Positions 16,050-40,099 of a stretch of DNA of 42,573 bases are shown piece by piece; positions within the stretch are counted from its first letter, which is position 1, and every line of letters starts with the position of its first letter. The notes below the pieces were generated by a model. The model searched no databases and was not told the origin of the DNA. It saw nothing but the letters and a program-made list of their open reading frames with translations. Origin of the DNA: Bacteroidaceae bacterium. GTDB lineage: Bacteria; Bacteroidota; Bacteroidia; Bacteroidales; Bacteroidaceae. The stretch spans positions 1 through 42,573 of the forward strand of contig JAFUFK010000015.1 in the NCBI GenBank assembly GCA_017469925.1. Direction: 5' to 3'. The position numbers and the translations under genes were made by a program.

Positions 16050-16580
16050 ATGCAGAAACTCAAGATTACGGAGATGCAACGCCTTTCGGTCGAGGAATAT
16101 CGCGATAGCCGGAAGACTCCACTTGTGGTAGTGCTCGACCACGTGCGTTCGCTCTACAACGTAGGCTCCATATTTCGCACGGCCGATGCTTTTCGGCTCG
16201 AAGGCGTCTGCCTGTGTGGCATCACGGCACGTCCTCCCCATCCCGAGATTCACAAGACCGCCCTCGGCGCCGAGGATTCCGTCCCCTGGCAATACTTCGA
16301 GCGCACGGAGGATTGTGTTAGATATTTGAAACAGAGTGGCTATACTATCCTTGCTGTTGAGCAATGTGACAAGAGCACTATGCTGAGTTCAGAGTTCAGA
16401 GTTCAGAGTTCAAAGTTGGCCGTGGTCCTGGGCAACGAGGTCAAGGGTGTGCAGCAACAGGTCGTCGATATGTGCGACGGTTGTCTCGAGATTCCACAAT
16501 TTGGCACCAAGCACTCGATGAACGTCAGCGTGGCCGCCGGCATCGTCATCTGGCAACTCTTTAATGCACTCAAAAAATAA
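16050..16580 (+). CDS. TrmH/SpoU-family RNA 2'-O-methyltransferase
   Basis: A 176-residue SPOUT enzyme. Motif 1 is NVGSIFRTADAF (about residues 41-52), motif 2 is VVLGNEVKGV and motif 3 is GTKHSMNVSVAAGI, the knotted SAM-binding region. It consists essentially of the catalytic domain, so whether it modifies tRNA or rRNA cannot be read from the sequence. The ATG at 16050 is preferred over a TTG 12 nt upstream. Just before motif 2 the protein has an SSEFRVQSSKL insert encoded by four perfect GAGTTCA 7-mers, a repeat expansion accommodated in frame in a surface loop. Confidence 0.92.
   Translation: MQKLKITEMQRLSVEEYRDSRKTPLVVVLDHVRSLYNVGSIFRTADAFRLEGVCLCGITARPPHPEIHKTALGAEDSVPWQYFERTEDCVRYLKQSGYTILAVEQCDKSTMLSSEFRVQSSKLAVVLGNEVKGVQQQVVDMCDGCLEIPQFGTKHSMNVSVAAGIVIWQLFNALKK
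16385..16412 (+). repeat. In-frame 7-bp tandem repeat inside the RNA methyltransferase gene
   Basis: Four perfect copies of GAGTTCA, encoding part of the loop before SAM motif 2. Copy-number change by one unit would shift the frame. Confidence 0.9.
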
Positions 16581-16626
16581 GGTTTCGAACAGTTTTGCTG
16601 TATTATTGGCTCTGTGTACATTTATT

Positions 16627-18216
16627 TCAAGGGCACTCAAGACGAAATATTATTATTTCTGCTTCGCCTTTTATTTTTCTCACGGAAGGCGATTTCTTAA
16701 TCTTTACAGGTTTATTTACTATTATTTGGGCTATACGATATGCATTAATTTTATCTCCTTCTTCTTCATAAATTATCATTTCGTAATATAATGGAAGAAA
16801 TTTTGATGGAATCATGGCATTTGCATATTCAAAAATTTCTATGGCCAATTTAGTTTCTTTTAATTGTCTATAATCATCAGCTATCAATAATTCCACATTA
16901 TAGTCATCATAAATATCTTTACATTCGGAAAGAATATTCAGGCTTTCTTTATAGTAATCATTATGATGCAACCAAGCCCCATAGTTGTATAGAAACGAGG
17001 GGTTTTTACTTAAACTCTTATACAGACTGGCGTATTTTTGGTGAATAATTTCAATAGGAGCCGATGACGCCTGCAACTTATGCCATTGCCATTCGTCGTA
17101 AATGTGTCTGTTTTGAAGAAGTGTCCACAAGATACAAAAGGAAAGTAGGAGTATCATCGATATATGCACTTTTTGGGAGTTAATGTAATAAGTGCTAACG
17201 ATTGAGCATAACAAAAAGGTACTGACCAGCCATATTATAGGAATTGTGTATGGAAAGGAAAACATGGACAATATAAATAATGTCAAAAAGATACTGAGGT
17301 AGAGATTTCTATATGGGCTCTTGATTTTAAGAGCCATTCTTATTAGAAAATACATAGTGCCGAAGAGCATGATAAGCCCCATTACGCCGTATTTGACGGA
17401 GAATAGTAGGAACTCATTGAATGGGTGCGAGGCATTGTCTGCCAAATAGGAGAACCCGATTTCAGGATGTTCTAAGAGGAACTTTGCTTGAAACGGCATG
17501 TATGAGGAAGAGAAACCATGCTCACCCCACCCGAATAGCGGTTTCTCTGCAATCATTTTCAATGAAACTATCCATAACAAAATTCGTCCGTCGGCTGAGT
17601 CACGCTTATAATAGTATAATGCTATCAATGATATTGTGCCGCCGAGAAAAATTGAAAACAGAATCTTACGGTTAAGTAAGCGACGAAATTCTGATATTTC
17701 TGCAAATATAATTGCAAAAGAAGAAAAAGCCCCTGCTATTATACAAGTTCTGGACTCTGACAGAAATAAAAATAAGAAAAAACTTATACTCAGGAAGTAC
17801 CATAGCGTTCTATTTTTTCCTGTAGATTTGATTGCGTAAAAAATGCAGATTGATAGGCAGAGTACCATCATCATGCCAAAGACAGCAGGGTTTCGGAATG
17901 AGCCTGTAAAGCGAAAAAAGGGGTGAAAAGAAGTTAATATTCCCACTATTTGTAAGAAGGCTATTATAATCTCAATAAAGCCTAGCAGGACAAATGTCTT
18001 CAGAGCCTTTTCTGGATGGCTTATTAATGGCTTTCTTTGAAAGATAGATACAATGCACAGAAAAAATAGAATAAGTATCCCGGCAACGGCCCATTTCTCC
18101 ACTATCATTTTCGACATTTCAGAGAAATGATAGGAGATAGGGAATAAACATCCGCTACAAAATAAAAGTGTGGGGAGGTGTATATCTCCCCACACAATTT
18201 TTATTTTTTCTATCAT
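16627..18216 (-). CDS. O-antigen-ligase-like (Wzy_C) membrane protein with TPR-like tail
   Basis: A 529-residue membrane protein with about ten to twelve hydrophobic helices in the first 370 residues. The large loop carries the pattern seen in O-antigen ligase/polymerase (Wzy_C) proteins: SESRTCIIAGAF, DSADGRILLWIVSLKMIAEK, PLFGWGEHGF and the SHPFNEFLLFSVKYGVMGL region with the H-N-E element. The last 150 residues are soluble and TPR-like (PSFLYNYGAWLHHNDYYKES, LSECKDIYDDYNVELLIADDY, TKLAIEIFEYANAMIPSKF). Such proteins transfer or polymerise glycans outside the inner membrane, or occasionally glycosylate proteins. No other polysaccharide genes are present, so the acceptor may be one of the operon's own surface lipoproteins; this is inference. 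The ATG overlaps the preceding stop (ATGA). The gene is clearly more AT-rich than its surroundings. Confidence 0.85.
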   Translation of the reverse strand: MIEKIKIVWGDIHLPTLLFCSGCLFPISYHFSEMSKMIVEKWAVAGILILFFLCIVSIFQRKPLISHPEKALKTFVLLGFIEIIIAFLQIVGILTSFHPFFRFTGSFRNPAVFGMMMVLCLSICIFYAIKSTGKNRTLWYFLSISFFLFLFLSESRTCIIAGAFSSFAIIFAEISEFRRLLNRKILFSIFLGGTISLIALYYYKRDSADGRILLWIVSLKMIAEKPLFGWGEHGFSSSYMPFQAKFLLEHPEIGFSYLADNASHPFNEFLLFSVKYGVMGLIMLFGTMYFLIRMALKIKSPYRNLYLSIFLTLFILSMFSFPYTIPIIWLVSTFLLCSIVSTYYINSQKVHISMILLLSFCILWTLLQNRHIYDEWQWHKLQASSAPIEIIHQKYASLYKSLSKNPSFLYNYGAWLHHNDYYKESLNILSECKDIYDDYNVELLIADDYRQLKETKLAIEIFEYANAMIPSKFLPLYYEMIIYEEEGDKINAYRIAQIIVNKPVKIKKSPSVRKIKGEAEIIIFRLECP

Positions 18217-19718
18217 TTGCTGCGTTCGAGAATCTTATCCACCCGCTCCCCGAAGGGAGTATCTGAAAAAGCCAGGTTGCTTATGTCTTCGCTTGGCGTA
18301 GGAGAAAAATCTACGAGGTGCAAGTTCTTGCAATGGGAGAAGGCGAAATCCTCAATGCTCGGGCTGCACCTCGACATATCTACATAATATAACATGTTAC
18401 ACCCCATGAAGGCATCACTCTTTATGTGTTTGAGCGAGGAGGGCAACTGCACTCGCTCTATGCCACAGAAGCGCGAAAACACATACTTGCCGATGACTTC
18501 CACACCTTCTGGTATGACAAGGCATGGAGGCAGAATCATACGCAAGAAAGAAAAATTGCCCAGTTCCTTCACACTGCCGGGGATGTTGGTTACGCTGCAT
18601 CCCTGTACCAGTTTGTCCGTGGCCGTCTCTATGATGGCGTTGCAGTTGTCGCGCGAGTCAAACACGGGATTCTTGGGATGAACTGTGATGGTGTTGCAGA
18701 ACTGGCAGCCTGAGAAAGCCATTTCGCCAATCTTCTGCACGCTCTTGGGGATGTAGATGCTACGGATACCAGTATCGGAAAACGCCTCTGCGCCAATACC
18801 TTTGATACCCTCCAGAATGACAGAAGCCCCGCAGCCCGCCACGATGGTGTCCTGGGCCGAATCGATGATGGCATTACAGTGGCGGCGCGAGTCGAACGTG
18901 CGGTTCCGCTCATCGACCACGACTTCCTTCAGGCTGTAGCAACCCTGGAACACCCTGCTGCTAACCTTCGTGACATTCCGTGGAATCCTTATAGACTCCA
19001 GACTCGCACAGCCCTCAAACAGACTTCCTCCGATGCTGTCGAGCGTACTGGGCAGTACAACCTCCTTCAGGTTGGTACAATTCCTGAAGGCACAATACTC
19101 AATCTTCCTCACCCCCTCGGGCAGGGCGATGCTCTCCAAGTCCTGACAACCCTCGAAGGCCCTCGGCCCTATGGTCGTGACTGACGAGGGAATCTCCGTG
19201 CCCCGACAGCCCAGCATGAGTGTATTGCTCTCTGTTACGATAAGCCCGTTGCAGCCGTCCCGCGAGTCGAACTCCTCATTGCGCTCGTCCACCGTTATGC
19301 GGCACAGATTGCTGCAGCCGAGGAAAATTCCATCGCTGTCGTAGCAAGACGCACCCTCAAACGTGGAAGGGAAGTGAATGCTCTCCAGCCCTGAACAGCG
19401 ATAGAAGGCATAGGGTTCGATGTCGGTCACGCCCTCGCCGATGACGAGATGTTTGATTTCCCCCCGTCCTGCAAACGCATACCTTCCTATGCGCTCCACT
19501 AGATAGGTCTTCCCCTCGAACGTTACCGAAGTCGGAAGCACCAGCGTACCGTCCCCAGTCAGGGGTATGGGTTCCCCGAAATCTGCATCCGAAATGACGA
19601 CAGAGGTGTCGCTCCAAAGGGTAAACTCATAGCCGTCTTGCTTGAAACTCTCTTCATTCCTGCCGTATGCAGGGGAGAGAAGCAGGAACACGAATAGTGG
19701 TGTCAGAAAATTCTTCAT
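18213..19718 (-). CDS. BspA-type leucine-rich repeat surface protein
   Basis: A 501-residue exported protein. The start MKNFLTPLFVFLLLSPAYG gives a Sec signal; an upstream in-frame start would overlap the previous gene. After a short head domain it consists of LRR_5 (BspA-type) repeats with the recurring pattern of SIALPEGVRKIEYCAFRNCT and LPSTLDSIGGSLFEGCASLE, about 23 residues each, interrupted three times by a conserved inter-repeat block with the pattern V-D-E-R-N..FDSR..CN.II (or VHPKNPVFDSRDNCNAIIET). BspA-type LRRs act in adhesion and host-protein binding in Bacteroidetes; the ligand here is unknown. It lies 11 bp after the C39-like lipoprotein gene and overlaps the O-antigen-ligase-like gene by 4 bp. 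No anchor or sorting tail is visible. Confidence 0.88.
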   Translation of the reverse strand: MKNFLTPLFVFLLLSPAYGRNEESFKQDGYEFTLWSDTSVVISDADFGEPIPLTGDGTLVLPTSVTFEGKTYLVERIGRYAFAGRGEIKHLVIGEGVTDIEPYAFYRCSGLESIHFPSTFEGASCYDSDGIFLGCSNLCRITVDERNEEFDSRDGCNGLIVTESNTLMLGCRGTEIPSSVTTIGPRAFEGCQDLESIALPEGVRKIEYCAFRNCTNLKEVVLPSTLDSIGGSLFEGCASLESIRIPRNVTKVSSRVFQGCYSLKEVVVDERNRTFDSRRHCNAIIDSAQDTIVAGCGASVILEGIKGIGAEAFSDTGIRSIYIPKSVQKIGEMAFSGCQFCNTITVHPKNPVFDSRDNCNAIIETATDKLVQGCSVTNIPGSVKELGNFSFLRMILPPCLVIPEGVEVIGKYVFSRFCGIERVQLPSSLKHIKSDAFMGCNMLYYVDMSRCSPSIEDFAFSHCKNLHLVDFSPTPSEDISNLAFSDTPFGERVDKILERSK

Positions 19719-19729
19719 TAGAATACTTG

Positions 19730-20368
19730 TTAATACCAAACATCTTTAATTTCACTCATATCAACGGTCTTTGCTCCTCCACCAGGGAGTGCATAACTTA
19801 CCTTCCCGCTATTACGATATATATTGGTGACATAGCCCACATGAGGCTCCATCAGGCCCGTTTTCTTGTTCAATATTTCAACTTGAATCATTTTGGGACG
19901 ATTTTGGGTATTAGAAAAATAATTAACTATTTCATCTTCACTGTTAAAATGTTGTCTCTCGTTAAAAGCGTTGTATTTTTTACCTAACTCAAGAAACACT
20001 TCAAGATCCATAGCTCCTCCGTTATACATAGAATTGCCATCTTCATCTTTAATACCTTTTGCATCATCCATAACGTTATTGTAACAATCTGTTGCGCTAT
20101 AGCCGCTGTTGAAATTATGATTGGGCATTTCTCGCTTTTTCATTTCTACGAAGGCGATTATACAACATTCGTTTTCTCCATAACTATACTCATTATAATT
20201 AAGTTCCAAGCCAGATTGGTCACTTTCACTTGTTATCAACGGAACTTGTGAATTGAGACTCAAATCACTCTCCATTAGAAAATCATCATCGTTCGAGCAA
20301 CTCATAAAAGGAATAATGCTTGCAATTACTAAACACGATGTCAAAGATACAAATTTTTTGTTTCTCAT
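19730..20368 (-). CDS. Lipoprotein resembling a C39/papain-fold cysteine peptidase domain
   Basis: A 212-residue lipoprotein (signal MRNKKFVSLTSCLVIASIIP, lipobox Cys24 in FMSC). I cannot assign a family with certainty. The mature part has the order expected of a small papain-fold domain: a Cys near the start of the domain (Cys68/Cys69 in GENECCIIAFVEM, compare N.CG in C39 peptidases), a helical middle (MDLEVFLELGKKYNAF) and, 107 residues on, a His in EPHVGYVTNIY followed by VSYALPGGG and MSEIKDVW, like the H-V..V.G....DP.GG.....el..W ending of C39-like proteins. Activity is inference. It sits in the middle of the lipoprotein operon, next to a transglutaminase-like protein with an analogous Cys-His fold. 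Confidence 0.6.
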   Translation of the reverse strand: MRNKKFVSLTSCLVIASIIPFMSCSNDDDFLMESDLSLNSQVPLITSESDQSGLELNYNEYSYGENECCIIAFVEMKKREMPNHNFNSGYSATDCYNNVMDDAKGIKDEDGNSMYNGGAMDLEVFLELGKKYNAFNERQHFNSEDEIVNYFSNTQNRPKMIQVEILNKKTGLMEPHVGYVTNIYRNSGKVSYALPGGGAKTVDMSEIKDVWY

Positions 20369-20402
20369 ACGTAATTTTTTTGTTGTTATTTGGCAATATC
20401 GC

Positions 20403-22526
20403 CTATTTCTTATTTTCTTGCTTTAAGATATCATGATAAATGAACAATTGCCGGCCATCCTTGATGATGAAGGGAAGTTCCTCTTTTCCCTCATCCTTGT
20501 TGCGGAGCCAGTAGAGTTTGTTCTTGGGGACATTGTTGAAGACGACATATTCGTAGCGGGCCTTGGCCGTGGCGACAAATTGCCAACCACGGTTCCAGTA
20601 GTATAGTTCATAAGTGTCGCCAGCATGTATTCCGTTGTCGGCATTAAGCGGGGCAAAGCGGACACGCGTAACGACCTGGGGCTCCTTGAGCCAGAGCGTG
20701 ATATTAGGATACGCCCCGGGAGAAGTCTGCATGTTGCCGTCGTACTCGGCCTTCCATTTCATTTTGTCCCAAGAATCATCATCCAACAACTTCACCAGTC
20801 CCGCTTCTTTCTGCAAAAGCAGGGTGTCTGCCGGGCAGAGCACGTGCGGTGGAGTGGGAGGCATGACATTCTGATACTTGTAGGATGCAGGGACAATCCA
20901 CTCCAGCATGGAGATGTTCGCATGGGGATATTCTTCGGGAGCCTGAAAGCGATAGAACTGGAAGCGTCCTCTCCGCGTGAGCGAATACTCGCGGAAAAGG
21001 GGGAGTGGCGCTTCGGGTATCTCATAGAGCGTCGTGGCATCGCTGAAGTCGCGCTTGTTGGCTCCTAAGATGCGACCACCCACGAGTTCCTCGGCCACCT
21101 TTATCATACTCTCCTTACGGGGGAACTTCCGGGTCAGGAGCAGGGAATTCCACGTATCCGCAGAGGCATCGGTGTCAGTCAGCGAGCAGATTTTGTCCTG
21201 CCCGCCCTCTCTTATTATGTAGAAAGGCTCACCGAAAGTCTCGTACTCTTCTGAAGGATAATATACAGGGAAGTAAAGTACGTCGTAGAGCACATTCGGA
21301 ATGGTGACGGAGTGATGCTCTTGGTCAATGACTCCCCAGGTTACGGGCATAAGGCCGTCATCGTTAAAGTTGTACGAGGCCAGGTAAGCCAGACGGTTGG
21401 GATGGCCTGTGCGGATAGGGAGCGTAATGGACGTGGTGGGCTTGTATAGCGACGTGACGTCCTTGAAGCAAGGATTGTCCATGACGGGCGGCACAAACTC
21501 GCCCTCGCTACGGAGGAAATAAGGGGAATCGGGCTGTGCCCCATAGGTGATACGGTGGATGTTTAGGGTAGGCTCGAACGACCAACTTCCGTCGTCTGGC
21601 AAGGAACTTTCGGGGTTGAAGCACGACCAGGTGTGAGTGGAATCGTTGTAGGCACTGCAATGGTAATGCCGACCAGCCCACTCGCGATAACTGACATTGT
21701 ACTCCACGACAACAGGGATTCCGCACGAATGGAGTATATTACAACCGTAGCTGGCAATATCTACACAGTCATGGAAGTCGCGTGAATATAGGTCATAGAC
21801 TCCTGCAAGTTTTTTTCGGTGTGTCTTTCCGTTGAGGTCGCGAAGCCCGTTGATGGTCTTGTTATAGTAATCAACCGATGAGGCTATGCTGTCGGAGTCT
21901 GTCCGCAGGATGTACTTTCCGAACAGGTCGTCGTAGTATTGACCCGTCTCCAGGAACCCATATCCATGCACGGACTGATAGGGCAGAATGTACTCCTTGA
22001 ACTCTTCGAATGTAAGATGGCGGGCATAGGGGGATTCGTGCCAGACCCTGAATGCGTGGTCGATGTGCTCCTTGAGGAAACGGAAGGACAGTGTTTCGAT
22101 GTCTTGCACAATCCCCATATCTACCTCTACATCGGGAAGCGTGTCGGCCTCGATAAGCGCGCGGCGGTTCTTCTGCTGGGCACTTAGGCTATCCCAGGGA
22201 AAGTTACTGATGGTGTGCCCACCGACTATTGAGGAATAGATGCTGTCTGTCTCCGACCTCCAGGCCTCCAGTGTAGAGTCGTTGCCTACTATCCTGCCAC
22301 GAGAATAGTGGTACTTCATGTTCTCTATCAAGAACTTGGCGGCCTCGTACTTCTCAGTATCCCAACGAATATACTTATAATAGAAGAGAAGTCTTTTCAG
22401 TTCGAAGGCATTGTCGCCTGCATAGCGGGTTACATCCGAATAGCAACTACTGAGCAGAAGCAGACTCAGGGATAGAATCATGCTTCTGCCAGTAATTTTA
22501 AGTGCTTCTGCAAGGTGCAAATTCAT
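20403..22526 (-). CDS. Transglutaminase-like lipoprotein
   Basis: A 707-residue lipoprotein (lipobox LLSSC, Cys28). The MNLHLAEALK start is kept because the next Met would leave too short a signal without a basic residue. A transglutaminase-like core lies at about residues 230-310: the nucleophile is Cys254 in FHDCVDIASYGCNILHSCGI and the histidine is in GRHYHCSAYND (287 or 289), followed by the WSCFNPE strand. The C-terminal half has beta-rich regions; the last 130 residues, including NITLWLKEPQVVTRVRFAPL and YELYYWNRGW, look like a discoidin-type (F5/8C) carbohydrate-binding fold. Relatives in Bacteroidetes are mostly uncharacterised; peptidase or cross-linking activity on peptides or glycoproteins is possible. 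It is the largest gene of the operon. Confidence 0.78.
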   Translation of the reverse strand: MNLHLAEALKITGRSMILSLSLLLLSSCYSDVTRYAGDNAFELKRLLFYYKYIRWDTEKYEAAKFLIENMKYHYSRGRIVGNDSTLEAWRSETDSIYSSIVGGHTISNFPWDSLSAQQKNRRALIEADTLPDVEVDMGIVQDIETLSFRFLKEHIDHAFRVWHESPYARHLTFEEFKEYILPYQSVHGYGFLETGQYYDDLFGKYILRTDSDSIASSVDYYNKTINGLRDLNGKTHRKKLAGVYDLYSRDFHDCVDIASYGCNILHSCGIPVVVEYNVSYREWAGRHYHCSAYNDSTHTWSCFNPESSLPDDGSWSFEPTLNIHRITYGAQPDSPYFLRSEGEFVPPVMDNPCFKDVTSLYKPTTSITLPIRTGHPNRLAYLASYNFNDDGLMPVTWGVIDQEHHSVTIPNVLYDVLYFPVYYPSEEYETFGEPFYIIREGGQDKICSLTDTDASADTWNSLLLTRKFPRKESMIKVAEELVGGRILGANKRDFSDATTLYEIPEAPLPLFREYSLTRRGRFQFYRFQAPEEYPHANISMLEWIVPASYKYQNVMPPTPPHVLCPADTLLLQKEAGLVKLLDDDSWDKMKWKAEYDGNMQTSPGAYPNITLWLKEPQVVTRVRFAPLNADNGIHAGDTYELYYWNRGWQFVATAKARYEYVVFNNVPKNKLYWLRNKDEGKEELPFIIKDGRQLFIYHDILKQENKK

Positions 22527-22553
22527 TTTTTTTATTCGTGATAGAGCCTATGC

Positions 22554-22670
22554 TCAGATGGGCATGATGCCATAATAGACCGTACCGCCGTCTTCGTTGT
22601 GACACGAGGACAACAGGCACGCAATGAATATTATGAAAATACCAAAGAAGAAAGTGGTTCGTTGCTGCAT
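22554..22670 (-). CDS. 38-residue lipoprotein peptide
   Basis: A short ORF fills the gap between the DUF3244 gene and the transglutaminase-like gene. It begins MQQRTTFFFGIFIIFIAC, has the lipobox LLSSC (Cys23), and leaves only 16 mature residues: CHNEDGGTVYYGIMPI. The basic n-region, hydrophobic core and lipobox are all intact and the start lies 4 bp after the upstream stop, which argues for a real gene. The product would be a tiny acylated peptide anchored to the inner or outer membrane. Function unknown. It could be an accessory subunit, a substrate of the neighbouring transglutaminase or C39-like proteins, or a signal peptide precursor; these are guesses. Confidence 0.7.
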   Translation of the reverse strand: MQQRTTFFFGIFIIFIACLLSSCHNEDGGTVYYGIMPI

Positions 22671-22674
22671 ATTA

Positions 22675-23040
22675 TTATAATTCAATGTAGCAATAGAAAG
22701 TTATGCTTCCACATATTATATGAAGTTCATAAGTTCCAGAGAGGCTACTTGGGAATGTCAGGTCCGTCTGATTTTCTTCGATGGAATCGGTAAAAATAAT
22801 GTTTTCGTCCTCATCCAGCAGTTGTACTACACAACCATCTAATGCTTCATCGAAAAGCAGGGTATGACCATTCTGATAAACAACAGGAGCAAGGATGGGG
22901 GATTTTGCAGGCTTCCCACCAGCATCTAAAGGTCGTGTTACTTTGATAGTAAAGGGTAAATTACAACCTCCATCACCTGGGTCTGCAGTCATTGTTCCCA
23001 TAGCTAAAAGGAACACCAAAGATAATAAATACTTTTTCAT
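22675..23040 (-). CDS. DUF3244-type exported protein
   Basis: A 121-residue exported protein with a Sec signal (MKKYLLSLVFLLAMGTMTA, cleaved before DPGDGG). The mature part fits the DUF3244 pattern common in Bacteroides and Prevotella: a PILAPVVYQNGHTLLFDEAL segment, then VVQLLDEDENIIFTDSI, then LTFPSSLSGTYELHII and a terminal FYCYIEL strand, i.e. one Ig-like beta-sandwich. Three or four Cys residues may form disulfides. Function of the family is unknown. It is the first gene of the operon that continues with the 38-residue lipoprotein, 4 bp downstream, and has its own TACCTTTG promoter. Confidence 0.82.
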   Translation of the reverse strand: MKKYLLSLVFLLAMGTMTADPGDGGCNLPFTIKVTRPLDAGGKPAKSPILAPVVYQNGHTLLFDEALDGCVVQLLDEDENIIFTDSIEENQTDLTFPSSLSGTYELHIICGSITFYCYIEL

Positions 23041-23082
23041 TTTTGAATTTAATAGATTTAGTTAGGCATAAACAAACGGTTG

Positions 23083-23090
23083 CAAAGGTA
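23083..23090 (-). promoter_or_regulatory. -7 promoter element of the DUF3244 / transglutaminase operon
   Basis: TACCTTTG on the minus strand, 42 nt before the ATG at 23040. It separates the operon from the regulator gene, whose stop is at 23165. Confidence 0.65.
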
Positions 23091-23164
23091 TTACTTTACA
23101 ACCGATACAACCAAACCTAAACGAAGAATTTATTTCACCACGTTTTCACATTTTACGTGTTTAT

Positions 23165-24850
23165 TTACTTATTCTCAGATATATATAAAATTTTTACCTC
23201 GTTTTCACATTCGAGGTCAATCAGTCTTTCTCGCAGTTTTCTACTGTCTTCTTCAGCAAAAAGTTTTCGACAAACGTTCTTTTTCGCATTTGAAACTCTC
23301 GAGCAACTAGTTCCTAAAAGATGGGCGATGACACTTGGATTGACCTTTAGATAGGTGAGGATGGTGACAAGCCGTTCTTGTTTGGAAAGCTCCGCCTTGT
23401 CCATTTTGGCAACAACATGAGGCATATATTTTGCATAAACGTCCATGAGAGATTTCCACTTTTCAGGTCTTGGGACTTCCCAATTGGGAGTAATATCCTT
23501 TTTATTGTTAAAGTATGTTATCACCTCATTTCTCGTTAGCAGTTCTTCTCTCTTTTTATAGCTTAACAGATTGAGTTCAGATTGATATTTTTTCAAGTTT
23601 TTTTCAAGTTGGGCGATATGCTGTTGCTTTTTCTCCATCAATGCCATAGTTTCTGCATTTTTATCTGAGTTATTATAGTTGCGTTTGAGGATCTGAAATT
23701 CTTCTACGAGTAGTTCATGTTCCCTCGTGGCATCCAAATATTGCTGATTAAGCAGTTGGAGTTTTTCTTTTTCTTGTTTGATTCGTTTTCTATAATGCCT
23801 GAATAAAAAAAATACCAGCAAAAGGATAAAGAGTGAACAGACTTTGTACCTTTCTGCTCTTTGTGCACTCCTTATCGCCGCATTCTGGTTTCTCTCGTAC
23901 TTGTACATGGCCGATGACTGGATAACAGCATTAGCTTGTCTTTTTGTCTCCCATTGTATAAGTGCATCTATTGTGGTTGATGCATATTTAATAACAGAGT
24001 CTACATTCTGTTTTTGTTGATATATGGCGAAAAGTCCCTTATTCGCTTCGTAGTGATAATCGGTTGTGCTTAATTTGCGATAGAAATACTCTGCGGAGTC
24101 TATTTTATTTGTTCCTAGATAGTATAACCCTTTAAAACTGTAATATAGTTCACGTCCTGATTCTATGTTTCCATCCTTGTCAAAAACTCCAGATTCCTTT
24201 TCAAAGGAATCCATAAGAGGTTTCGCATCCTCATTTTTTCTATTTTTAAGGTATATATAAATTATATTATGGTATACATCCGAGGCCTGTTTGACATATC
24301 CATGTTTTAGATACATCTCATGTGCATTATTTGCAATATGGACAACCATCATTGTATCATTTAATACATAATATGGTCCACCCTTCATCGCATACCCATA
24401 TATATTGTTTAAGGTGTCACCAGATAGGAGCGCATACTTAGAATAGGCATCCCACGCACTAAGTTCTTCCTGTGGCATATTTTGTTGTCCGTATATCATC
24501 GCCATCTGGCCATAGACACGGAACAGGGTTGCATAGTCACATTTTTTACTTGTGGTATCAGCTTGCTCGGCTGCTATATTATAATAATGTATGGCGGCCG
24601 GAGCCTCGCCCATATCGCGGTAGGCGCAGCCGAGCATGTAGTAGGCGCGCATGCGGAGGTTTCGGCTGTGCCACCAGTGGTCGTAGTGGCGGACGAGTGC
24701 CTTCCCGATGGAGTCGGAGAGAAAGGGCTGGTCGGTCCGGTTCATCTCCTCTGCTTGCTCCAGCAGGGCCTGCATGCGGCGGCTCTCCCCCGTGCAGGCA
24801 GGGAGCAGGAGCAGGGCGGCGATATAGAGTAAAAGGTATTGCTTTTTCAT
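23165..24850 (-). CDS. Membrane-anchored TPR protein with C-terminal HTH-like domain (putative regulator)
   Basis: A 561-residue protein beginning MKKQYLLLYIAALLLLPAC, a lipoprotein-like signal with LPAC. The periplasmic part (about 30-330) is built of TPR-like helices, including RMRAYYMLGCAYRDMGEAPA and AIHYYNIAAEQADT. A single membrane helix (VCSLFILLLVFFLF, about residues 345-360) is followed by a cytoplasmic coiled coil rich in E, K and Q, and a C-terminal segment LSKQERLVTILTYLKVNPSV then IAHLLGTSCSRVSNAKKNVC that looks like an HTH with a recognition helix. This layout is common in Bacteroidetes one-component or sigma-like regulators (DUF6377-like). It lies directly upstream of the lipoprotein operon in the same direction and is the obvious candidate for its control. 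Start at 24850 chosen because it gives the signal sequence; the frame is open to 24901. Confidence 0.78.
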   Translation of the reverse strand: MKKQYLLLYIAALLLLPACTGESRRMQALLEQAEEMNRTDQPFLSDSIGKALVRHYDHWWHSRNLRMRAYYMLGCAYRDMGEAPAAIHYYNIAAEQADTTSKKCDYATLFRVYGQMAMIYGQQNMPQEELSAWDAYSKYALLSGDTLNNIYGYAMKGGPYYVLNDTMMVVHIANNAHEMYLKHGYVKQASDVYHNIIYIYLKNRKNEDAKPLMDSFEKESGVFDKDGNIESGRELYYSFKGLYYLGTNKIDSAEYFYRKLSTTDYHYEANKGLFAIYQQKQNVDSVIKYASTTIDALIQWETKRQANAVIQSSAMYKYERNQNAAIRSAQRAERYKVCSLFILLLVFFLFRHYRKRIKQEKEKLQLLNQQYLDATREHELLVEEFQILKRNYNNSDKNAETMALMEKKQQHIAQLEKNLKKYQSELNLLSYKKREELLTRNEVITYFNNKKDITPNWEVPRPEKWKSLMDVYAKYMPHVVAKMDKAELSKQERLVTILTYLKVNPSVIAHLLGTSCSRVSNAKKNVCRKLFAEEDSRKLRERLIDLECENEVKILYISENK

Positions 24851-28418: not shown

Positions 28419-31400
28419 CTATTTTACTGTTACTTTCTTTCCATTGTGGATGTACACGCCCTTCTGGTAAGGCTTCGAACTGAGGCGGCGTCCGCTGAGG
28501 TCGTACCAGCCCTCGCTGTCGAGGCCGTCCATCGAGATGAAGTTTATCACCGTGGGCTCGTCGAGGCTGCCGTGAACGGCATTATCCACGTAAGGCATCC
28601 GCTGGCTCGTAGTGGCCACAATCTCGCCGTCGCGCTCTATGGCAAAGCCTATCGCGCCCTCGCTACGCCCTATACTGAGGAAGAATAATTGTGAATTGTT
28701 AATTATGAATTGTGAATCGCCTTCGGCCACACCACGTGTCTCGCCCATCTCGCCGTAGGCTACCAGCTGGTCGCCGTCCATGAGTTCGAAGCCCTCCACA
28801 CGGGCAATGACGTTCATTGACGCGCCCGACGTGTTGCGGAAGAGCGGCACTGTGCACTTTGCACTTTGAACTGTGAACTGGCCTTCGCCCTTCACGTTGT
28901 TATACTTCGTGCCTGTCGAGTAGTACGGATACCAGAAGGTGTGCTCCGATGGGGCATTGCGCTTGAGCATGTAGCCCTCGCCCGTGCGCAAGTACTCCAG
29001 CGTGCCCTTCCACAGGCGGTTGCCCGAGGCATCGATGCTGAGTACGGCAAACTCGCTCTGGCTCTTGATGATGTCGCCTTCAGAGGCTGCGTCGGTGTAG
29101 TCCGACAGGGCGGTGGCGATGGGCAAGTTCATGGGCGACAGGTAGCCGATGCGGTTCCATCCCTGGTGTACCGTGATGCCCTCGTACGCCACGTTCTCGC
29201 CCGAGATGTAGATGTTCTTCGGACTCTGCACATAGAAGCGGTACATACGCTGCGGATAGAGTTGTGTCGTCTTTTCGCCGTTGTCCCAGTAGTAAACGTT
29301 GCTGTACGTCGTGCGGTCGTAGATAGACTTATAGGTAATCAGGTAGGGACGTTCGTCGTCTTCCATAAGTTCCAGCCCGTCGCCAACCTCCCAAGTGGCC
29401 ATGCCATCCAGCAGGTCATTGACGGTGCTGATTCCAGGCTGCACGTAGGTGGAAGCCCAGTTCCAGCCTTTCTCTAACCTTACGGTCTGCACTTCCTTCT
29501 GGCGGGCATAAAGGACGACGGGATTCGTCGCCGTGCCCAGGATGGCATCGGCTTGGAAGAGTATGGTGTCGGGAGTGAAAGTGATGTCGGCCTGTTCCAT
29601 GTTCTGTTTCTCCACAACGTAGATGCGGCCCGTCGAGGCATCGTAGAACTCGAAGTGTACAGGTGTGCCGTCGGCTCCGGCCGTGTTGTAGATGGTCAGG
29701 AAGACCAGTCCATCGTTTTCCGTCGTTCCCTGCTTCACGTTAGCTGTGCCAAGTGTGCGGTGCCCCGAGCCTATGGCCGCCAGGATGTCGTCCGTGTCGT
29801 GGGCAACCTCATTACCCACCATCACGCGAGCTACCATGTGCATCGTCACGTTTCCGGCCTTCAGTTGGTCATCCACCGTCCAGTCGGGCACCTCGCCGCG
29901 CACGCGGATGGTCAGCGGTAAGGGTTCCGTCATGCCGTTCTCACCCACGATATAGACTATCTCCTCGAAGTCGCCGATGTTGATGTACGGTGAGATGGTC
30001 AGCGTGACGGGCTCCTCGTCCAAGGGACCAATCTTGCCGCTCGTTTGCGAGGCCGTTATCCACTGAGGCAGGCCCTCCAGCGTATAGTCCTTTGTCTTGC
30101 CGCTCAAGTTCTCGATGGCCACCTCCACGGTCGTACCTTCGCCGTATCGCATGTCCACCGTCTTGCGCTTCACGTTCCAGCGCAGCGGGTTACGATAGAC
30201 ATAGAGGTCCATGGCCAGCGGCGAGGCCATCAGGTTGCCCTGCAGGTCGGCCACCTCCTTCACGGTCACATAGACGTTCGTCTTCTCTATCTGGTAGTCG
30301 GGCACGTCGAGGTTGATGTAGAGTTCGTTGTCCTTGGCCACGTAGGAGTACTTGATGTTCTCCAGTTTGCCCGCGTTCACCATCGGCGCGTAACTCTGGC
30401 GGTCGGCATGGAGGTCGATAATCTCCTGGCTGACGATGGTGTCCACGTGGCTCTCTACGATGTTGCCGTGGTTGTCCTTGTATTTGCGCAGGCTCAGGCC
30501 CGTTGGCATCAGTCGCTGCGAGTTGTCCAACTGCCGCTCCGAACGACTGAAGGGCAGGTAGGCCAGCAGCCCCATCTCCTCGCCCGACGGCGAGTTCTTG
30601 CTGATGAGTTTCAGCACGTTCTCGGGCAGGGCCATCTCGAACATGGCGACTTCGTCAATGTTGCCCGTTAACTGTGAACTATGAACTGTGAACTGTGAAC
30701 TATAAGTGGCTCCCAGCATCAGCGCATTGCCGCCGATGCCGCCCAGGGTGTCAACGGGGAAAGTCTGTTCCAGTTTTTCATCGACGTAGAGGCGACCCAC
30801 GTTCAGCGGACGGTTTACGCTCACGGCCAGATGGTGCCACGAGCCGTCGTGGTAGTAGCCGCTGGCGTTCACCTGCTGACCGCCGGAGCGGAAGAACAGC
30901 GTGCCGTCCTCCAGACCGATGTTGAAGTGGTTCTTGTAGCCAGCCTCGTCCCTTGCCTCGCCATTGCTCATCAGCGTCGCGTTGAGGTCACTGGTGCGGA
31001 ACCACAGCATCAGCGTATAGTCCTCATAGTCCGTACGGTTGAACAGGTTGGGATTCAGGCTGATGCCTTCCGTGCCGTCCAGTTTCATACTGATACCGTC
31101 GGGCACCTTCCAGGTTGTGCCCACCAGTCGCAGGTCGTTGCTGCCCACCGCCTTGTCGTAGGCGTAGTCGCCGCTGCCCTCGTTCATGGGGTAGTTGTCC
31201 AGCAGACCCAGTTCGTAGCCCGTCAGTCGCTTCTGGGCGTAGGTGCCCAGTTCGGCACTCGTCATGGCCTTGTTCCAGAGGCGCACCTCCAGCATCTCGC
31301 CCTCGAAGTTGTTGCCCAGGACGAGATTGCTCGTGCCGTTGTACATACCCTCGAACGAACTCCGTCCGATGTTCTTCGTACCGTCGTAGAAGGTCACGTT

Positions 31401-34400
31401 CGTCAGGTTCTCCTCCTCGTCCACGTCGAAGACGTATGCCACATGGTGCAGGTCCTCGAAGTTCACCGCCTCCGTGCTCAACATCTCTATGCCGTTGACG
31501 TTCGCCCAGAGTCGGCTGTCGGCGGTAACGCCCAGGTTCAAGTAGGCGTTTTCGTCCATCGAGTGGGTCAGCACGGTCATTTTATTGCCATTCTGGCGAG
31601 GCTTCAGCATCAGGTCGAGCGTGAAGTCCTTGCCCGCCAGGTTGCGGTTGGAGAGGGAGACGGCTGCCCCCTGTCCGTTGAATTGCAGGGCGGTGGCCAG
31701 CGAGATGCTGCTCTGGTTCGTCAGGCCAAGCACCTCGAAGTTGTTCACCTCCGACAGGTAGTTGCCCGCAATCTGTTCCGAGAAGGGAATCCTGATGTCG
31801 TCGCCGATGCCCAGAATGCCGTTCGTCGGCTGCGGCGTGCCGAAGGGTTGCGGACGGCGCGTGTCCTTGATGCCCGTGAGGATATTTGAAGCATTGGTCA
31901 GGTAACCATTGCCGTGACGACAGTAGCATACGGCGCGCAGGTCGTACCGCTGTTCCACGGGGTCGTTCTCGCCGTAGAACGTGGCATCGATGTAGCCGTC
32001 GTGCTCCATCAGTTTCCTTTCACCCGAGGCTAAGGCCATCAGCCGCCGGCCCTCCTCCGTGTCCGGATAGTAGGAGCAGACGTTCACCCAGTCCTTGTCG
32101 CCCTGCGTCGAGAGTTTGTATTGCAGTTCGATGTGGTCGAAGTTGCGGAAGTTCACGTTGTAGCCGTCGATGTGTACGGGCAGGTAGTAACCCTGTCGGT
32201 CGCTGTCGTAGGGCGATTCGGTGTTCACTACCCACTTGTCGCCTGGGGTGGATATGTTCACCTTACCGGCAGCGGGCACGAAGTGTGCCGAGAGGCTGAC
32301 CGTCCAGGTGTGCTTCACGTCCTCCTCGTCGAAGAGCGTGATGCCCAGGTCCTCATAGTCATACTCTTCTCCGGCATACACCTCCACGTGTTTCTCGTAG
32401 ATGACGTTCGGTTCCATCCAGAGGTCGATACCCGTGCCCGTCAGCGGCATACCGTCCACGTAGATTTTGGCTCCCTTCGGGTTCATGGCATCTTCCAGAT
32501 AGAACTTAAACTCGTTGCTGATGCGTTCGGGCATTTCGCTCTCGTTGGTCATGTAGATGGTGAAGCGAGCGGCTTCGCCGTAGGGCACGTTCGACACGCT
32601 TGGTTCCTTGGCCCAGATGCGCAGTTTGTTGATTTGCTGCGTCGCCTGGTCAAGGATGGTGCCGGGGTTGTAGAACATCGTTCTGCGCTCCTCCTCCCAC
32701 GGGCTTGCCGTGGCACCGGCCAGCGTGCGGAACACGAAGTTACGGTAGCGCGGTGTGTTGCTCAGTCCGTCCAGATAAGTCATGGCATTCACCGCGTCGG
32801 CCTGTCCGCCGTAGATTTTCGAGAGGTTGTCCTCCACGTTCTTGTAGAAGAGGTCCAGTCCGCCCAGTTCTGCCAACTTGGCGATGCTGTCGGTGCCCAG
32901 TTCGCGGGTGCGATAGACGGCTACCGTCAGGCTCGACTTGCGGCTACATGCCAGCGTGAAGCCTGTCTCCTTCGAGTACCCGGTCTCCTTACCGCTCAGG
33001 TAGTTGAAGTCGAAGCCCACCTTGGGCACGATTTCCAGAGAGAACTTGGTGCCGCCGGCCTCGAAATAGACATAGTCCGAGCCGTTGTCTTTTTCATGTT
33101 CAGCGCTTCCCTTGCTGCTTTGGTGGTCAACAACACCGAATGTGTCGCCACCGAACTCAGGACTGATGCCCGGATAAGCCACATAGCGGTGCAGCCCATC
33201 GGTGGTGGTGAACGACTCGCTGTATTCCACATTGGTGCGGCCGTCGAAGTCGTAGGTCTTCACGAGATCCATGGCTTGAAGTTTCTCCTTCTCGTTGGCA
33301 GCGATGAAGCCCGCCCATGTGCGGGCCAGGTTGTTCAGCACCTGTATGGTGTCGCCCCACACGTCCTGCTGCCCTTTGGGCACAAAGCGCTGGTAGTAGC
33401 CTGTGCTGGAGAAGTGGTCGTCGTCCGCTGCCACGGTGCTGCGGTAGGCGGGCATCCCAGTCTGGTCGGCCACCTGCTGGGCATATTCGGGTGTGACAGA
33501 CACGTCGAGCAGCAGGGCGTTGCGCGCCTTCAGCAGGGAGGGAATCAGTTCATCCAGGAGGTAACTCTGCGAGTGGGCAAAGGTGGTATTGACGTTGGTC
33601 GATACGGACAGCACCTCGTCGCGGACGAGATAGACGGAATCCTCCTTCACGGGGTCCCAGCCACGGGCCAGCACCTTGGCCGTGCCCGATACGTCGAACT
33701 CATGCCCGTTGACCTCCATCGTACCGCCCATGCCGGGGCGCAGCCGCTTCATGGCCTCGCTGCCCACGGCGCGCACGGCGATGGCATCCTCCACGAGGAT
33801 GTTGTCCGTCACGCCGATATAGACGTCGCTGTTCATGCCCACTTCCTTCACGTTGTCGCTGGTGGAGATTTTCTCCTTCGTCTCCAGTTCGTATTCGTAA
33901 CTCCAGTCGGTGTAGTACTTGGTAGTCAGGTCGAGTCCGATGGTCGTAGTCTTGTCGCTCGATATGGTGCTTCCAGCCGTGGTGCCACTGCCCGCACCGG
34001 CCCAGATACCCGTGTAGTAGTTGCTACCCGAGCCCCACTCCAGGCTGATGCCTATGCCCGCCTCGGCGGTCAGGTCGGCGGAGTAACTGTAACTTATCTT
34101 CGAGCCCTTCTCGATGTAGGCCGAGGAGCCGGAGCCTGGGGGGTCGCGCAGGATATCCACGAGGTGGACGTTCTGTCCGGCCAGGATGTGGCGGCCCTGC
34201 TTTTTGGCCTGGGAGGCCATGACATAGCCCCGGATGGGGGTGATGTCGTAGAACGAGCCGTCGTGCTCGAGGGTGAACTTCAGTGTGCGCAGGGCCATGT
34301 CATCCTCCAGTTGGAAGGTCAGGTTCTGCGGCGTGAAGACGTAGGTGGCCTGACCGAGGCTGTCCAGTTCCAGTTCCTCGCTCTCATCGACGCCTACCAG

Positions 34401-37400
34401 TCCGTTGCCGACGATGACGCGACCGCTGTGCAGCGACACCACGTCGGGCGCACCCAGCACTTCATTGTTATAGTAGTATTCCTCGCGGGCGGAGAGCAGC
34501 ATGGGCACGGGGCTGCCTGCCATGAAGACGGGATGGCCCAGCGTGTAGCCCACGTCCTTGCGCCAGAGGTAGATGGTGTCCTGTCCGCCGGCATTGTCGC
34601 GGGCGGTGTATTGCTTCACGCCATAGAAGCGGTCCTGAGCGCCTGTGAATTGCCAGATGTCGAGCGTAGGCAGGGCGTGGTAGATGCGGCTCCACGTGGC
34701 GGTGTCGCCCTCGATGTAGTTGCCCAGGTCGAGGGTCTCGCTCACCGTGCCCGTCTGGAAGAGTGTCGGGTAGCCCGTGGCATAGACCTCCGTGACCTTG
34801 AACTTCACGGGGTACATGGGCACCTGGTACTCGCCCGTCACGGGGTCGGGATGTACGACGATGCGGTGGCGGTAGGCATCGACCAGGGTGGTGTCCTTGT
34901 CCTGCTTGCCGTGCGCGACGTTGTAGTGTCGTTCGGTGATGTTGTCGTCCAACTGGTCGCGGACTATCCACGACGTGTTGTCGCCCTCCAGTTGGAAGAC
35001 GATGGTCACGTCGTCGCCCAGGTTGTTACGGGAAAGGCTCTCGCCCAGCGGAAGCAGTCCCTGGTCGTTGCCGCCCACGACGCGACCTTGCAGGGTGACG
35101 CGGGTCTGGTCCCAGAGGTAGATGCCGGCGAGGTCTTTCTGCCAGTTCACGTTGGCAGACTCCTTGTCGAGGTCGATGTAGTAGCCGTCGTTGAGGAACT
35201 TATGCCCCTCCTTCACGGCCTGTATGGTGTGGGTGCCCTGCGGGATGCTCACCGTGAAGGCTCCCTGTGTGTTCGTCGTCACGGGATTGCCCTTGGCATC
35301 CACCACCGGCACACCGTCGCGCAGGAACTGTACGCCCGAGACGGGAATGCTCGAGCCCTCATAGAGCACAAAGCCCGAGAAGTCGTAGTAGAGGGTGCTG
35401 GTGAAGATGATGCCCGAGACGAGGTTGCTGGTTTCATCGAAGGTCACCGTCTGCGGCGGGAAGGCACCGTCGGTGCCCACCTGCAAGGTGTAGGTACCCT
35501 CGCGCTGGTAGATGAGGCTGTCTATCTCGAAGTAGCCCGTGGAGTCGGTCACGCACGAGAGTTCCACGCCGCCCGTAATACCATTGGGGGTGGCCGTGAC
35601 GGTCAGGTCTGGCAGGCCGATGCCGTTGGCCAGGCGCACATAGCCGCGCACCAGTCCCGTCTTCTTGCAACAACCGTCCACAGTCAGGCGACTGACGTGC
35701 TCGCCCTCGCACTGCGTCACGGCCTCGATGGTGTAGGTGTAGTCGTGCTGCGGGCGCACGGTCTGGTCGATGTAGGCCGTCTGCGTGTAGTCCGCCTCCA
35801 GCGTGTCGACACGTTCGGGAGTCATCTTGTCGTAGCGCAGGATGCGGTAGAAGTCGGCCTCCACGCCCTCCCGCGTCGTCCATTCCAGCGATACGGAACT
35901 CTGCAAGGTGTCGGCCTTGACGGAGGCCAGTTGCACGTTGTTGTCGAAGATGTAGTATTTCAGTTCCCCCTGGTCCTGCTTCTCGGCCACGCTGCCTCGC
36001 GTGTTAATCAGTGGCAGGGAGGCATCGCCCGGCTCCACATGGAAGCGGAAGGAATGGTCGAGGCAGGGGGTGACGACTTCCACTTGCAGTTTGCCGCTCT
36101 CGCGCTCTTCCTTGGTCAGTTCGCGCTTCTCGATGTAGTCGTACCCGGCATCGGGGTCTGTGCCGTCGGTGCCTGCCACCTGTATGGGCACGATGTTGCC
36201 GCTGGTGTCAATTTGCCAGTTCTTGCTCTCCAGAAGTTCCAACACGGTGAGGGGATTCCTGCCAATCAACTCATTGCTGTTATTGTCGGCAGACAGACAA
36301 TTAACCCCATCTTTTCCTGTGTTTCCTTCAAAGTAAGCAGACTTGTGCCCACTAATATAGTTGATGCTGGGAGCCGAACCATAGTTCAGGCAACTTATCA
36401 CTTGGCAATTTCCGTTGAAGCCATGCGCGACGAAGAAGCCGACGTAGCCATTTTTGGTGTCGGTGCAGGTAATCGTGCCGTCGTAGCGGCAGTCGCGCAC
36501 GACGACTTTGGCTCCCTGTCCGCTACCCACGAAGCCGCTGGCCTCGGTGCCGCTGGCTGTGACATCGACCATGACGCGAGTCCTCTCTATGGTGAGTTCG
36601 CCGCCTGGAAGGACTTTTCCCACGAGACCCGCAGAGCCGTTGGGGCCCTTCACTGTGCCCTTCACGTTCAGGTTGCGTATGACGGCCTTGTCGCCTACGT
36701 TCATGAAGAGGGCGTAGGGAGCATCAATGCCTACCTCCCGTTCGAACTGGAAGGTGATGGTGTGGCCCTGACCGTCGAAGGTGCCGCGATAGTAAGCCTC
36801 CTCCAGTGGAGCGCAAGGGAAGCCGCTCACTCTCGTCATTACGTCAATGTCGGCATTAAGTACGGCGTTGACGTCCTTCTTACCTTCAGCCGCATTGACT
36901 GCGTAATAGAAATTCACCCAGTCTTGATAATTGTTGATGACAAAACTTTCCTCGAGTTGGTTGGTATCGAGAGCCTTCTTGCCCGTGGTGAGGACCACCT
37001 TGGCGCGGTCGTCCCAGAGCAGGGTCTGGTGCTCGGCGCTGGTGGACGGCGTGGCAACGGGCACCAGGTTGCCTGCCTGTACCGTCCAGTGAATTTGGTC
37101 TGTAGCCGTATTAAGCGTGTGCAGCAATTCGGAGGTGGACAAGAAGTTGGCCGCCTTGCCCTGCGAGACGGGGAGGTAGTCGGCTGTCTGGCTCACCCGG
37201 GGGAGGATGTCGCTTGTGCCATATTCATCGACATTATACCAGTTTGCCGTGCCCAGTTTATTAACCAATTCCGAAATAGTCATGCCAATGGCATTGTTAG
37301 CCGGATTGCTGCCTCCGGTGGCATGGAAGGCCCAGTTGTTCTTGTTGTCGCCCGTGTTGCCATAACTGATGATGGAGCCGCTGTTGTAACTCCAGTTCAT

Positions 37401-39989: not shown

Positions 39990-40021
39990 TGTATGATAGT
40001 TTTGTTGCATTATTTTCGCAG

Positions 40022-40029
40022 CAAAGGTA
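40022..40029 (-). promoter_or_regulatory. -7 promoter element of the giant surface protein gene
   Basis: TACCTTTG on the minus strand followed by CTG, 32 nt before the chosen ATG at 39989. Confidence 0.65.
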
Positions 40030-40059
40030 GGCAAAAATCTTCGCGCGCATATATAAAAG

Positions 40060-40099
40060 AGGTATGTCAATTTGGTACAAAAGCCAAATTGACATACCT
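40060..40099 (-). terminator. 16-bp perfect hairpin after the dipeptidase gene
   Basis: AGGTATGTCAATTTGG (40060-40075) and CCAAATTGACATACCT (40084-40099) pair without mismatch around an 8-nt loop. On the minus strand the hairpin is followed by CTTTTATATA, so it can work as a terminator for the gene ending at 40124. It also lies 30 bp upstream of the giant gene promoter and could be an operator. Confidence 0.75.

Follow-up and report, generated by a model that had tools for sequence, protein, structure and literature searches.

Seven tightly spaced genes on the - strand of a 42,573-nucleotide stretch from a Bacteroidaceae bacterium (GenBank assembly GCA_017469925.1, contig JAFUFK010000015.1; the whole stretch is called the window hereafter) encode, in this order, a regulator with tetratricopeptide repeats (TPRs), a DUF3244-like protein, a 38-amino-acid (aa) open reading frame (ORF), a transglutaminase-like (TG-like) lipoprotein, a Cys-His lipoprotein, a leucine-rich repeat (LRR) protein and a ligase-type membrane protein with a Wzy_C domain. 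Comparison of related loci revealed that the TPR regulator and DUF3244 genes form a pair that precedes varying secreted cargo, here the TG-like, Cys-His, LRR and Wzy_C/TPR ligase proteins. The gene set looks like a system for modifying surface proteins or peptides that is apparently undescribed: no description of it was found in the open-licence PMC literature, and one may exist in print elsewhere. The reading that we tentatively favour, and would not yet call probable, is that of a regulated, exchangeable cassette for surface-protein maturation in which DUF3244 is an inhibitor-like partner, the functions being predicted from sequence. The genes are as follows.

24850-23165, - strand, TPR regulator, 561 aa
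23040-22675, - strand, DUF3244-like small secreted protein (immunoglobulin-type), 121 aa
22670-22554, - strand, 38-aa lipoprotein-like ORF with a signal peptide, LLSSC and a short tail
22526-20403, - strand, TG-like lipoprotein, 707 aa
20368-19730, - strand, Cys-His lipoprotein with C68 and H176 and an acidic CSNDDDF start after the lipobox-like Cys, 212 aa
19718-18213, - strand, BspA-type LRR_5 secreted protein, 501 aa (analysed as 19715-18213, without its Met)
18216-16627, - strand, Wzy_C ligase-type membrane protein of the WaaL/O-linking oligosaccharyltransferase superfamily with C-terminal TPRs, 529 aa

The intergenic gap of 124 bp between regulator and DUF3244 sets the regulator off from the six downstream genes, which are separated by 4, 27, 34 and 11 bp and, between LRR and ligase, overlap by 4 bp (ATGA); the compact one-strand gene run with one ATGA overlap that a preliminary description had reported is thereby confirmed. 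That description also took the region to be richer in AT than its flanks, which holds for the ligase (35.6% G+C), the Cys-His lipoprotein (35.2%), DUF3244 (39.1%) and the regulator after codon 90 (36.9%) but not for the TG (51.4%) and LRR (53.6%) genes. The latter two lie near the average of the whole window (54.3%), ruling out a uniform AT-rich island. In Pfam searches, the Wzy_C (E 1.7e-15) and LRR_5 (E 3.6e-68) matches exceeded the Pfam cut-offs. The TG-like, Cys-His and DUF3244-like proteins of the window gave no significant Pfam match of their own, and their family calls come from relatives. The source genome assembly comprises 2.87 Mb in 28 contigs and is 85.8% complete. Below, L with a number denotes a fetched genome stretch, C a contig of the own genome and G another genome; E-values of home-made profiles derive from small sequence sets.

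Two recurring gene pairs

Searches with one sequence found the TG gene in 6 and the ligase gene in 16 of 61 genomes, the own genome counted, and a TG profile matched 184 of 393 Bacteroidales genomes, many of these being short matches to other TG proteins. Among 34 TG stretches fetched, picked by hand from the top of the list downward, 16 contained the ligase, which lay on the same strand in 15 and within 500 bp on the same strand in 10. Conversely, when named genomes were scanned using the ligase alignment, 44 ligase loci emerged, not all independent (the contigs of L111, L138 and L145 had already been found in other genome searches, and L120/L122 are near-copies). With the same ORF calling, TG was present in 22 of them, 21 times on the same strand within 7 kb and 6 times within 500 bp. 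The two genes overlap by 4-29 bp in seven loci (L087, L090, L102, L118, L126, L142 and L146). With a few TG genes in a 3-Mb genome, chance alone would yield roughly one such case by our estimate. Many loci are cut at contig ends, and in L134, which has TG, the ligase was not called as an ORF.

The regulator and DUF3244 form the second pair. Used as a query, the window regulator had 54 matches, spread over 24 of 61 genomes; we read 12 regulator loci, 11 from this search plus L043, reached via its DUF3244 gene. DUF3244 lay within 77-191 bp of the regulator in 10 of the 12 (9 of 11 without L043), and in the own genome alone it was beside the regulator in five of six loci (six of seven with L043). 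The cargo behind these pairs is very diverse, including SpvB and C25, M6 and S8 peptidases. An order-wide PF11589 search matched 107 of 149 genomes; six of the 30 loci read encode stand-alone small DUF3244 proteins, of which five adjoin a regulator match, one of them weak (4e-6), and the sixth has no upstream sequence.

Both pairs are found together as well as apart. In L087, from another family, regulator, DUF3244, TG and ligase follow one another with a 10-bp TG-ligase overlap; L122, L120 and L115 share the order regulator, DUF3244-like gene, TG, small lipoproteins, ligase, and L134 has regulator-DUF3244-TG. Judged from these gene orders, the region is therefore not one ancient unit but two joined modules, regulator with DUF3244 and TG with ligase. 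The conserved neighbourhood on which the earlier proposal turned was thus found, as both pairs recur in several families. The nearest titled relatives are Prevotellaceae and Bacteroidales metagenome-assembled genomes (MAGs); L124 and L128, Bacteroidales-like loci in MAGs titled Roseburia, are probably mis-binned.

Two TAnnTTTG boxes, which we take to be the Bacteroidota -7 box, start 79 and 50 bp before the ATG of the window DUF3244 gene, the nearer being:

23083..23090, - strand, promoter-like box TACCTTTG of the TAnnTTTG type, the one that begins 50 bp ahead of the DUF3244 start codon

Such a box occurs within 130 bp upstream of 11 of 15 DUF3244 genes, against a shuffle mean of 1.2, and none of 2000 mononucleotide shuffles reached 11. 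These boxes and their enrichment suggest that the six genes downstream of the regulator probably have a promoter of their own, located before DUF3244.

Two of the own-genome loci with such pairs are described here. L222 (C3) has regulator, DUF3244, a 150-aa protein and then an SpvB-domain protein. In L044 (C28), the genes after a paralogous regulator and DUF3244 encode a VKOR-C39-thioredoxin protein, a GT25/methyltransferase protein, a Gly-Ser-rich 108-aa protein with a GG-type leader, recognised by eye, and an outer-membrane barrel; this locus resembles loci for ribosomally synthesised and post-translationally modified peptides (RiPPs).

Properties of the encoded proteins

The regulator has a lipobox-like N-terminus, TPRs, one transmembrane segment (residues 332-350), a coiled-coil-like stretch and, by eye, a C-terminal helix-turn-helix (HTH)-like segment. 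TPR_2 was detected in 11 of 14 family members, the window regulator giving weak TPR matches, and the earlier view of a membrane TPR regulator is supported. The DUF3244 assignment was reached via relatives: of 13 proteins in the alignment, seven matched PF11589 at E<=0.1, the best at 4.8e-6 and the window protein not among them, and the alignment profile matched PDB entries 4g5a (E 0.0011) and 3sd2, a DUF3244 structure (E 0.37).

In the TG-like lipoprotein, C254 and H287 are invariant in 18 of 18 aligned relatives, and an alignment of six relatives agrees. Transglut_core was found at E<=0.01 in nine of the 18 (best 1.6e-5; the window protein was not one of them) and F5/8-type domains in 11. Around the catalytic Cys, the TG profile gave a weak match to human TG2 (E 0.14). 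Its C-terminal third matched PDB 2yb7, labelled carbohydrate binding family 6, at 1.6e-30 in permuted order; 2yb7 is presumably CBM62, which is galactose-binding. The Cys/His invariance, the Transglut_core matches in relatives and the 2yb7 match point to a protein that probably has a TG fold with carbohydrate-binding modules. As a separate observation, TG relatives in L076, L081 and L172 lie beside radical S-adenosylmethionine (SAM) maturase-like genes and genes for ABC transporters, which may point to a RiPP context; the radical-SAM calls were made by Pfam in L076 and by eye in L081 and L172.

The Wzy_C domain of the window ligase scored 57.5 bits against a cut-off of 31.7, and the protein is polytopic, with 11 partly overlapping hydrophobic windows. 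R211 is kept in 12 of 12 aligned ligases, which also keep a GxG..F..YM..Q block and an NE pair, and aligns with WaaL R265 in a marginal alignment. The profile match to WaaL (7tpg) was weak, with E 4.7e-4 for the whole protein and 0.76 for the N-terminal part alone. In a passage of PMC12800693, Arg residues and one His are hypothesised from the WaaL structure to form the PglS active site. These features indicate that the window protein has a ligase-superfamily fold; glycan transfer is a prediction, and the identity of a catalytic His is uncertain. Members of the ligase family occur in Paraprevotella, Tannerella forsythia and Proteiniphilum, as well as in numerous genomes from gut and rumen. The preliminary assignment of a ligase-type membrane protein and of TG-type and Cys-His proteins is supported.

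The label "C39-like", which had been given to the Cys-His lipoprotein, did not hold up: it showed no PF03412 match at E<=1 and no PDB match up to E 10, and Peptidase C39 identity was rejected on these profiles. As for a Cys and a His in papain-like order, C68 and H176 are kept in three of three close relatives; in a wider set of six, the His alone stays aligned. Small, varied lipoproteins lie near TG and ligase in related loci, with C-terminal types that differ by locus: Cys-His, HxH..D (JAMM-like), glycine-zipper-like and Cys-rich, the JAMM-like and glycine-zipper labels having been assigned by eye. The idea that the F3 lipoproteins form one family with an invariant N-terminus fared poorly (median identity 28% in the N-terminal part versus 22% in the rest, 105 pairs); beyond identity, it is backed only by the acidic start and by a T/G-R motif that was picked out by eye. 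At least one small lipoprotein adjoins a large MG2-like or LRR protein in each of L103, L124, L141, L142, L110, L112 and the window. The large-protein BLAST family F2 was found in 18 loci, and five members taken as typical matched MG2 at 1.5e-6 to 4e-3, below the Pfam cut-off. LRR family F5 occurs in six loci, and the Cys-His lipoprotein together with LRR in Prevotellaceae/Paraprevotella (window, L110, L112). C11-type peptidase family F14 occurs in four loci; for one member, a Pfam match (3e-26) confirms the type.

A counterpart of the 38-aa ORF turned up solely in the nearest relative, no search aimed at it having been made elsewhere; over 37 aligned codons the two copies are 86.5% identical, with about 11 changes in total and nonsynonymous (dN) and synonymous (dS) divergences of 0.066 and 0.283. 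The proposal that it is a conserved substrate is therefore unsupported, and the earlier model of a peptide that would be cross-linked and glycosylated, with the regulator sensing the product, is at this stage a hypothesis. As the lipobox of this relative's copy reads LPWC, its lipidation is doubtful.

Sequence breaks and repeats

The close relative, G429, contributes two contigs, L165 and L107, whose ends cut the LRR gene. Protein identity to the window is 86% for the 38-aa ORF, 91% for TG, 81% for the Cys-His lipoprotein, 91% for LRR (414 of 501 codons) and 84% for the ligase, versus 48% for DUF3244 and 34.5% for the regulator. The similar dS (.26-.38) and dN/dS (~.12-.32) of the five distal genes indicate that these genes are inherited together and constrained. 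High identity starts at window position 22706, inside the DUF3244 3' end, and the cargo changes behind this conserved end (TFYCYIEL*). In L165, a GIY-YIG-like gene (L165 7699-8257; Pfam 7.9e-4, short of the cut-off) separates an intact DUF3244 gene from a duplicate of some 90 bp of the DUF3244 3' end, as judged from the printed alignment, and the cassette comes next.

A second break lies within the regulator, which is chimeric: 24820-24581 matches its own-genome paralogue in L044 at 92-95% per 60 bp, after which the match drops to 0.3-0.7, and codons 1-90 have 61% G+C against 37% in the rest. A third concerns an orphan duplicate of the LRR gene with 95.6% DNA identity (L226 3633-5211; window 19724-18212), which lies without a ligase on contig C17 of the own genome, beside the dispersed repeat. 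The two repeated sequences involved are:

16539..16607, - strand, sequence of ~70 bp, 87% identical, after the ligase in the window and directly after the orphan LRR on C17
24872..25100, - strand, copy of a dispersed repeat of ~200 bp, immediately upstream of the regulator and containing four palindromes of the AACCAGTSACTGGTT type at 22-bp spacing

These breaks, at the DUF3244 3' end, within the regulator and at the C17 LRR copy, fit repeated cassette exchange as far as the sequences tell. The horizontal exchange proposed earlier gains support from the identity break with G429, the chimeric regulator and the mosaic G+C.

The palindromes of the dispersed repeat gave 4 matches versus 0.06 expected by shuffles, and part of the repeat upstream of the regulator also matches L044. 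In the own genome, 39 matching segments are spread over about 18 sites, mostly intergenic. A role as the regulator's operator is unsupported, as the repeat lies beside six regulator genes (C22, C28, C1, C15, C3, C27) at either end and at about twelve other sites. Further upstream in the window, an ORF of 3883 aa occupies 28419-40070 on the - strand.

Possible function and rival readings

Three known systems offer comparisons. The window ligase has in common with the WaaL/PglL/PglS O-antigen ligases and O-linking oligosaccharyltransferases the Wzy_C domain, the polytopic form, a loop Arg and a weak 7tpg profile match, but differs in its C-terminal TPRs, its His pattern and a TG-like lipoprotein as genetic partner. 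General protein O-glycosylation of Bacteroidales (Tannerella, Prevotella), from the same order, likewise transfers glycans to exported proteins, as predicted here; the seven window genes, by contrast, include no gene for glycan synthesis. BT2221 is listed as a DUF3244 protein in PMC10434189 and is proposed, in parts of PMC3462683, to be the staphostatin-like inhibitor BtiZ; its gene stops 14 bp short of the C10 protease gene btpZ, and the two are co-transcribed. Such C10/staphostatin-like operons of Bacteroides (btp/bti, bfp/bfi), as far as these excerpts go, also have a small exported protein, BtiZ, encoded just upstream of a papain-like protease gene, whereas the window has TG-like and unassigned Cys-His proteins instead of C10, plus a TPR regulator and a ligase.

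In the scheme that we infer, including the regulator HTH, the promoter function, the inhibitor role and each catalytic step, the periplasmic TPR part of the regulator would read an envelope signal and its cytoplasmic end would activate the operon through the promoter ahead of DUF3244. As an inhibitor or chaperone, the DUF3244 protein would protect the co-expressed Cys enzymes until they have reached the cell exterior. The TG-like enzyme could carry out amide cleavage or transfer while its C-terminal modules hold glycans, and the Wzy_C ligase could transfer a lipid-linked glycan to an acceptor held by its TPRs; jointly, at the cell surface, the two would attach or finish exported cargo consisting of a small lipoprotein and an LRR or MG2-like protein. 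Possible, though less assured than the regulated cassette itself, is a machine for cell-surface protein modification, widespread in Bacteroidales, that unites a TG-like enzyme able to bind carbohydrate with a Wzy_C/TPR transferase and acts on exchangeable cargo proteins or peptides, with cassettes swapped at the DUF3244 3' end behind a regulator with an exchanged N-terminus.

Several observations weigh against the maturation cassette. The ligase was absent from 18 of the 34 TG stretches and TG from 22 of the 44 ligase stretches as fetched, several of these being short contigs. TG relatives also adjoin radical-SAM genes (L076), and the third TG residue, expected to be Asp, is not conserved (N304 in the window; N, D, M or G in relatives, placed by eye). 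The EHAHN of WaaL aligns marginally (E 0.76) with SHPFN, so that one WaaL His meets F266 and the other H264; H264 is present in 8 of 12 aligned ligases, replaced by N, Q or R in the other four, and absent from the relatives linked to NVEALA peptides, discussed below. No HTH family was detected by Pfam across the 14 regulators, the HTH-like segment having been called by eye. The match of DUF3244 to the inhibitor potempin A reached only E 0.56, and, in the parts of PMC3462683 concerned, BtpZ is without the catalytic Cys and the support for BtiZ-BtpZ is co-transcription, not inhibition. Moreover, in 24 of the 30 order-wide loci (L241-L270) the DUF3244 profile matches near the C-terminus of a larger ORF (offsets for L243, L258 and L264 computed by hand), which offers an alternative to the inhibitor role. 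Sorting domains of the type IX secretion system (T9SS) sit at such C-terminal positions, and DUF3244 may therefore be related to them.

A related branch of TG/ligase loci suggests a different function, which we consider unlikely but worth weighing: a secreted-peptide or antagonism system. In it, small and diversified peptides or lipoproteins, NVEALA peptides elsewhere and the 38-aa ORF and Cys-His lipoprotein here, would be matured by the products of TG, ligase, signal-peptidase-like and exporter genes and would act on neighbouring cells. This branch carries NVEALA peptides (PF14055) and beta-propeller lipoproteins (DUF5128), often with a Lep-like S26 peptidase or RND genes. In L035, L036, L166-L169, L077, L079, L083 and L096, NVEALA and propeller lipoproteins, often in repeated pairs, accompany TG, several of these loci also having ligase, Lep-like S26, MauE-like or RND/TolC genes; L035, L036 and L039 supplied the seeds, chosen by eye, for the NVEALA and propeller profiles, and one locus, L077, has Pfam confirmation. 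In G004, of the same genus, a TG 53-54% identical to that of the window lies in such a locus, and the diversity of the small lipoproteins described above also fits. The TG and ligase families are thus common to both kinds of locus. The window operon, however, has no NVEALA, propeller or Lep match, and a hidden NVEALA peptide was rejected, none of the window ORFs of at least 22 aa between 13 and 28.5 kb having matched. No toxin or immunity pair was recognised either, and the 38-aa ORF is known from one relative alone, in the absence of a dedicated search. According to a table in PMC10434189, BT0662-BT0669 of B. thetaiotaomicron include an O-antigen ligase, a propeller, lepB and an RND adaptor, and may be a locus of the NVEALA type; the word NVEALA is absent from the open-licence PMC literature.

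The Wzy_C domain, the conserved R211 and the carbohydrate-binding modules of the TG partner would also suit an envelope-glycan system. There the ligase would join polysaccharide to lipid or to peptidoglycan, glycoproteins would be trimmed or anchored by the TG-like protein, and the LRR and Cys-His products would be surface proteins in their own right that merely share the promoter. We judge this improbable; Pfam shows no glycosyltransferase or flippase among the seven genes, and a small lipoprotein and a large protein recur as neighbours in ligase loci. A chance assembly of non-cooperating accessory genes gathered by horizontal transfer would explain the mosaic G+C, the modules found apart and the roughly half of loci that have one partner missing, but it is very improbable given TG-ligase adjacency and regulator-DUF3244 pairing in several families and the similar dS and constrained dN/dS of the five distal genes in the nearest relative.

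If the TG and the Wzy_C ligase do act as a pair, they would provide Bacteroidales with a further route to modify exported proteins or peptides, besides O-glycosylation and T9SS anchoring. If true, this would also give a function to DUF3244, NVEALA, the propeller lipoproteins and this TG family, and would provide a regulator with a defined partner gene.

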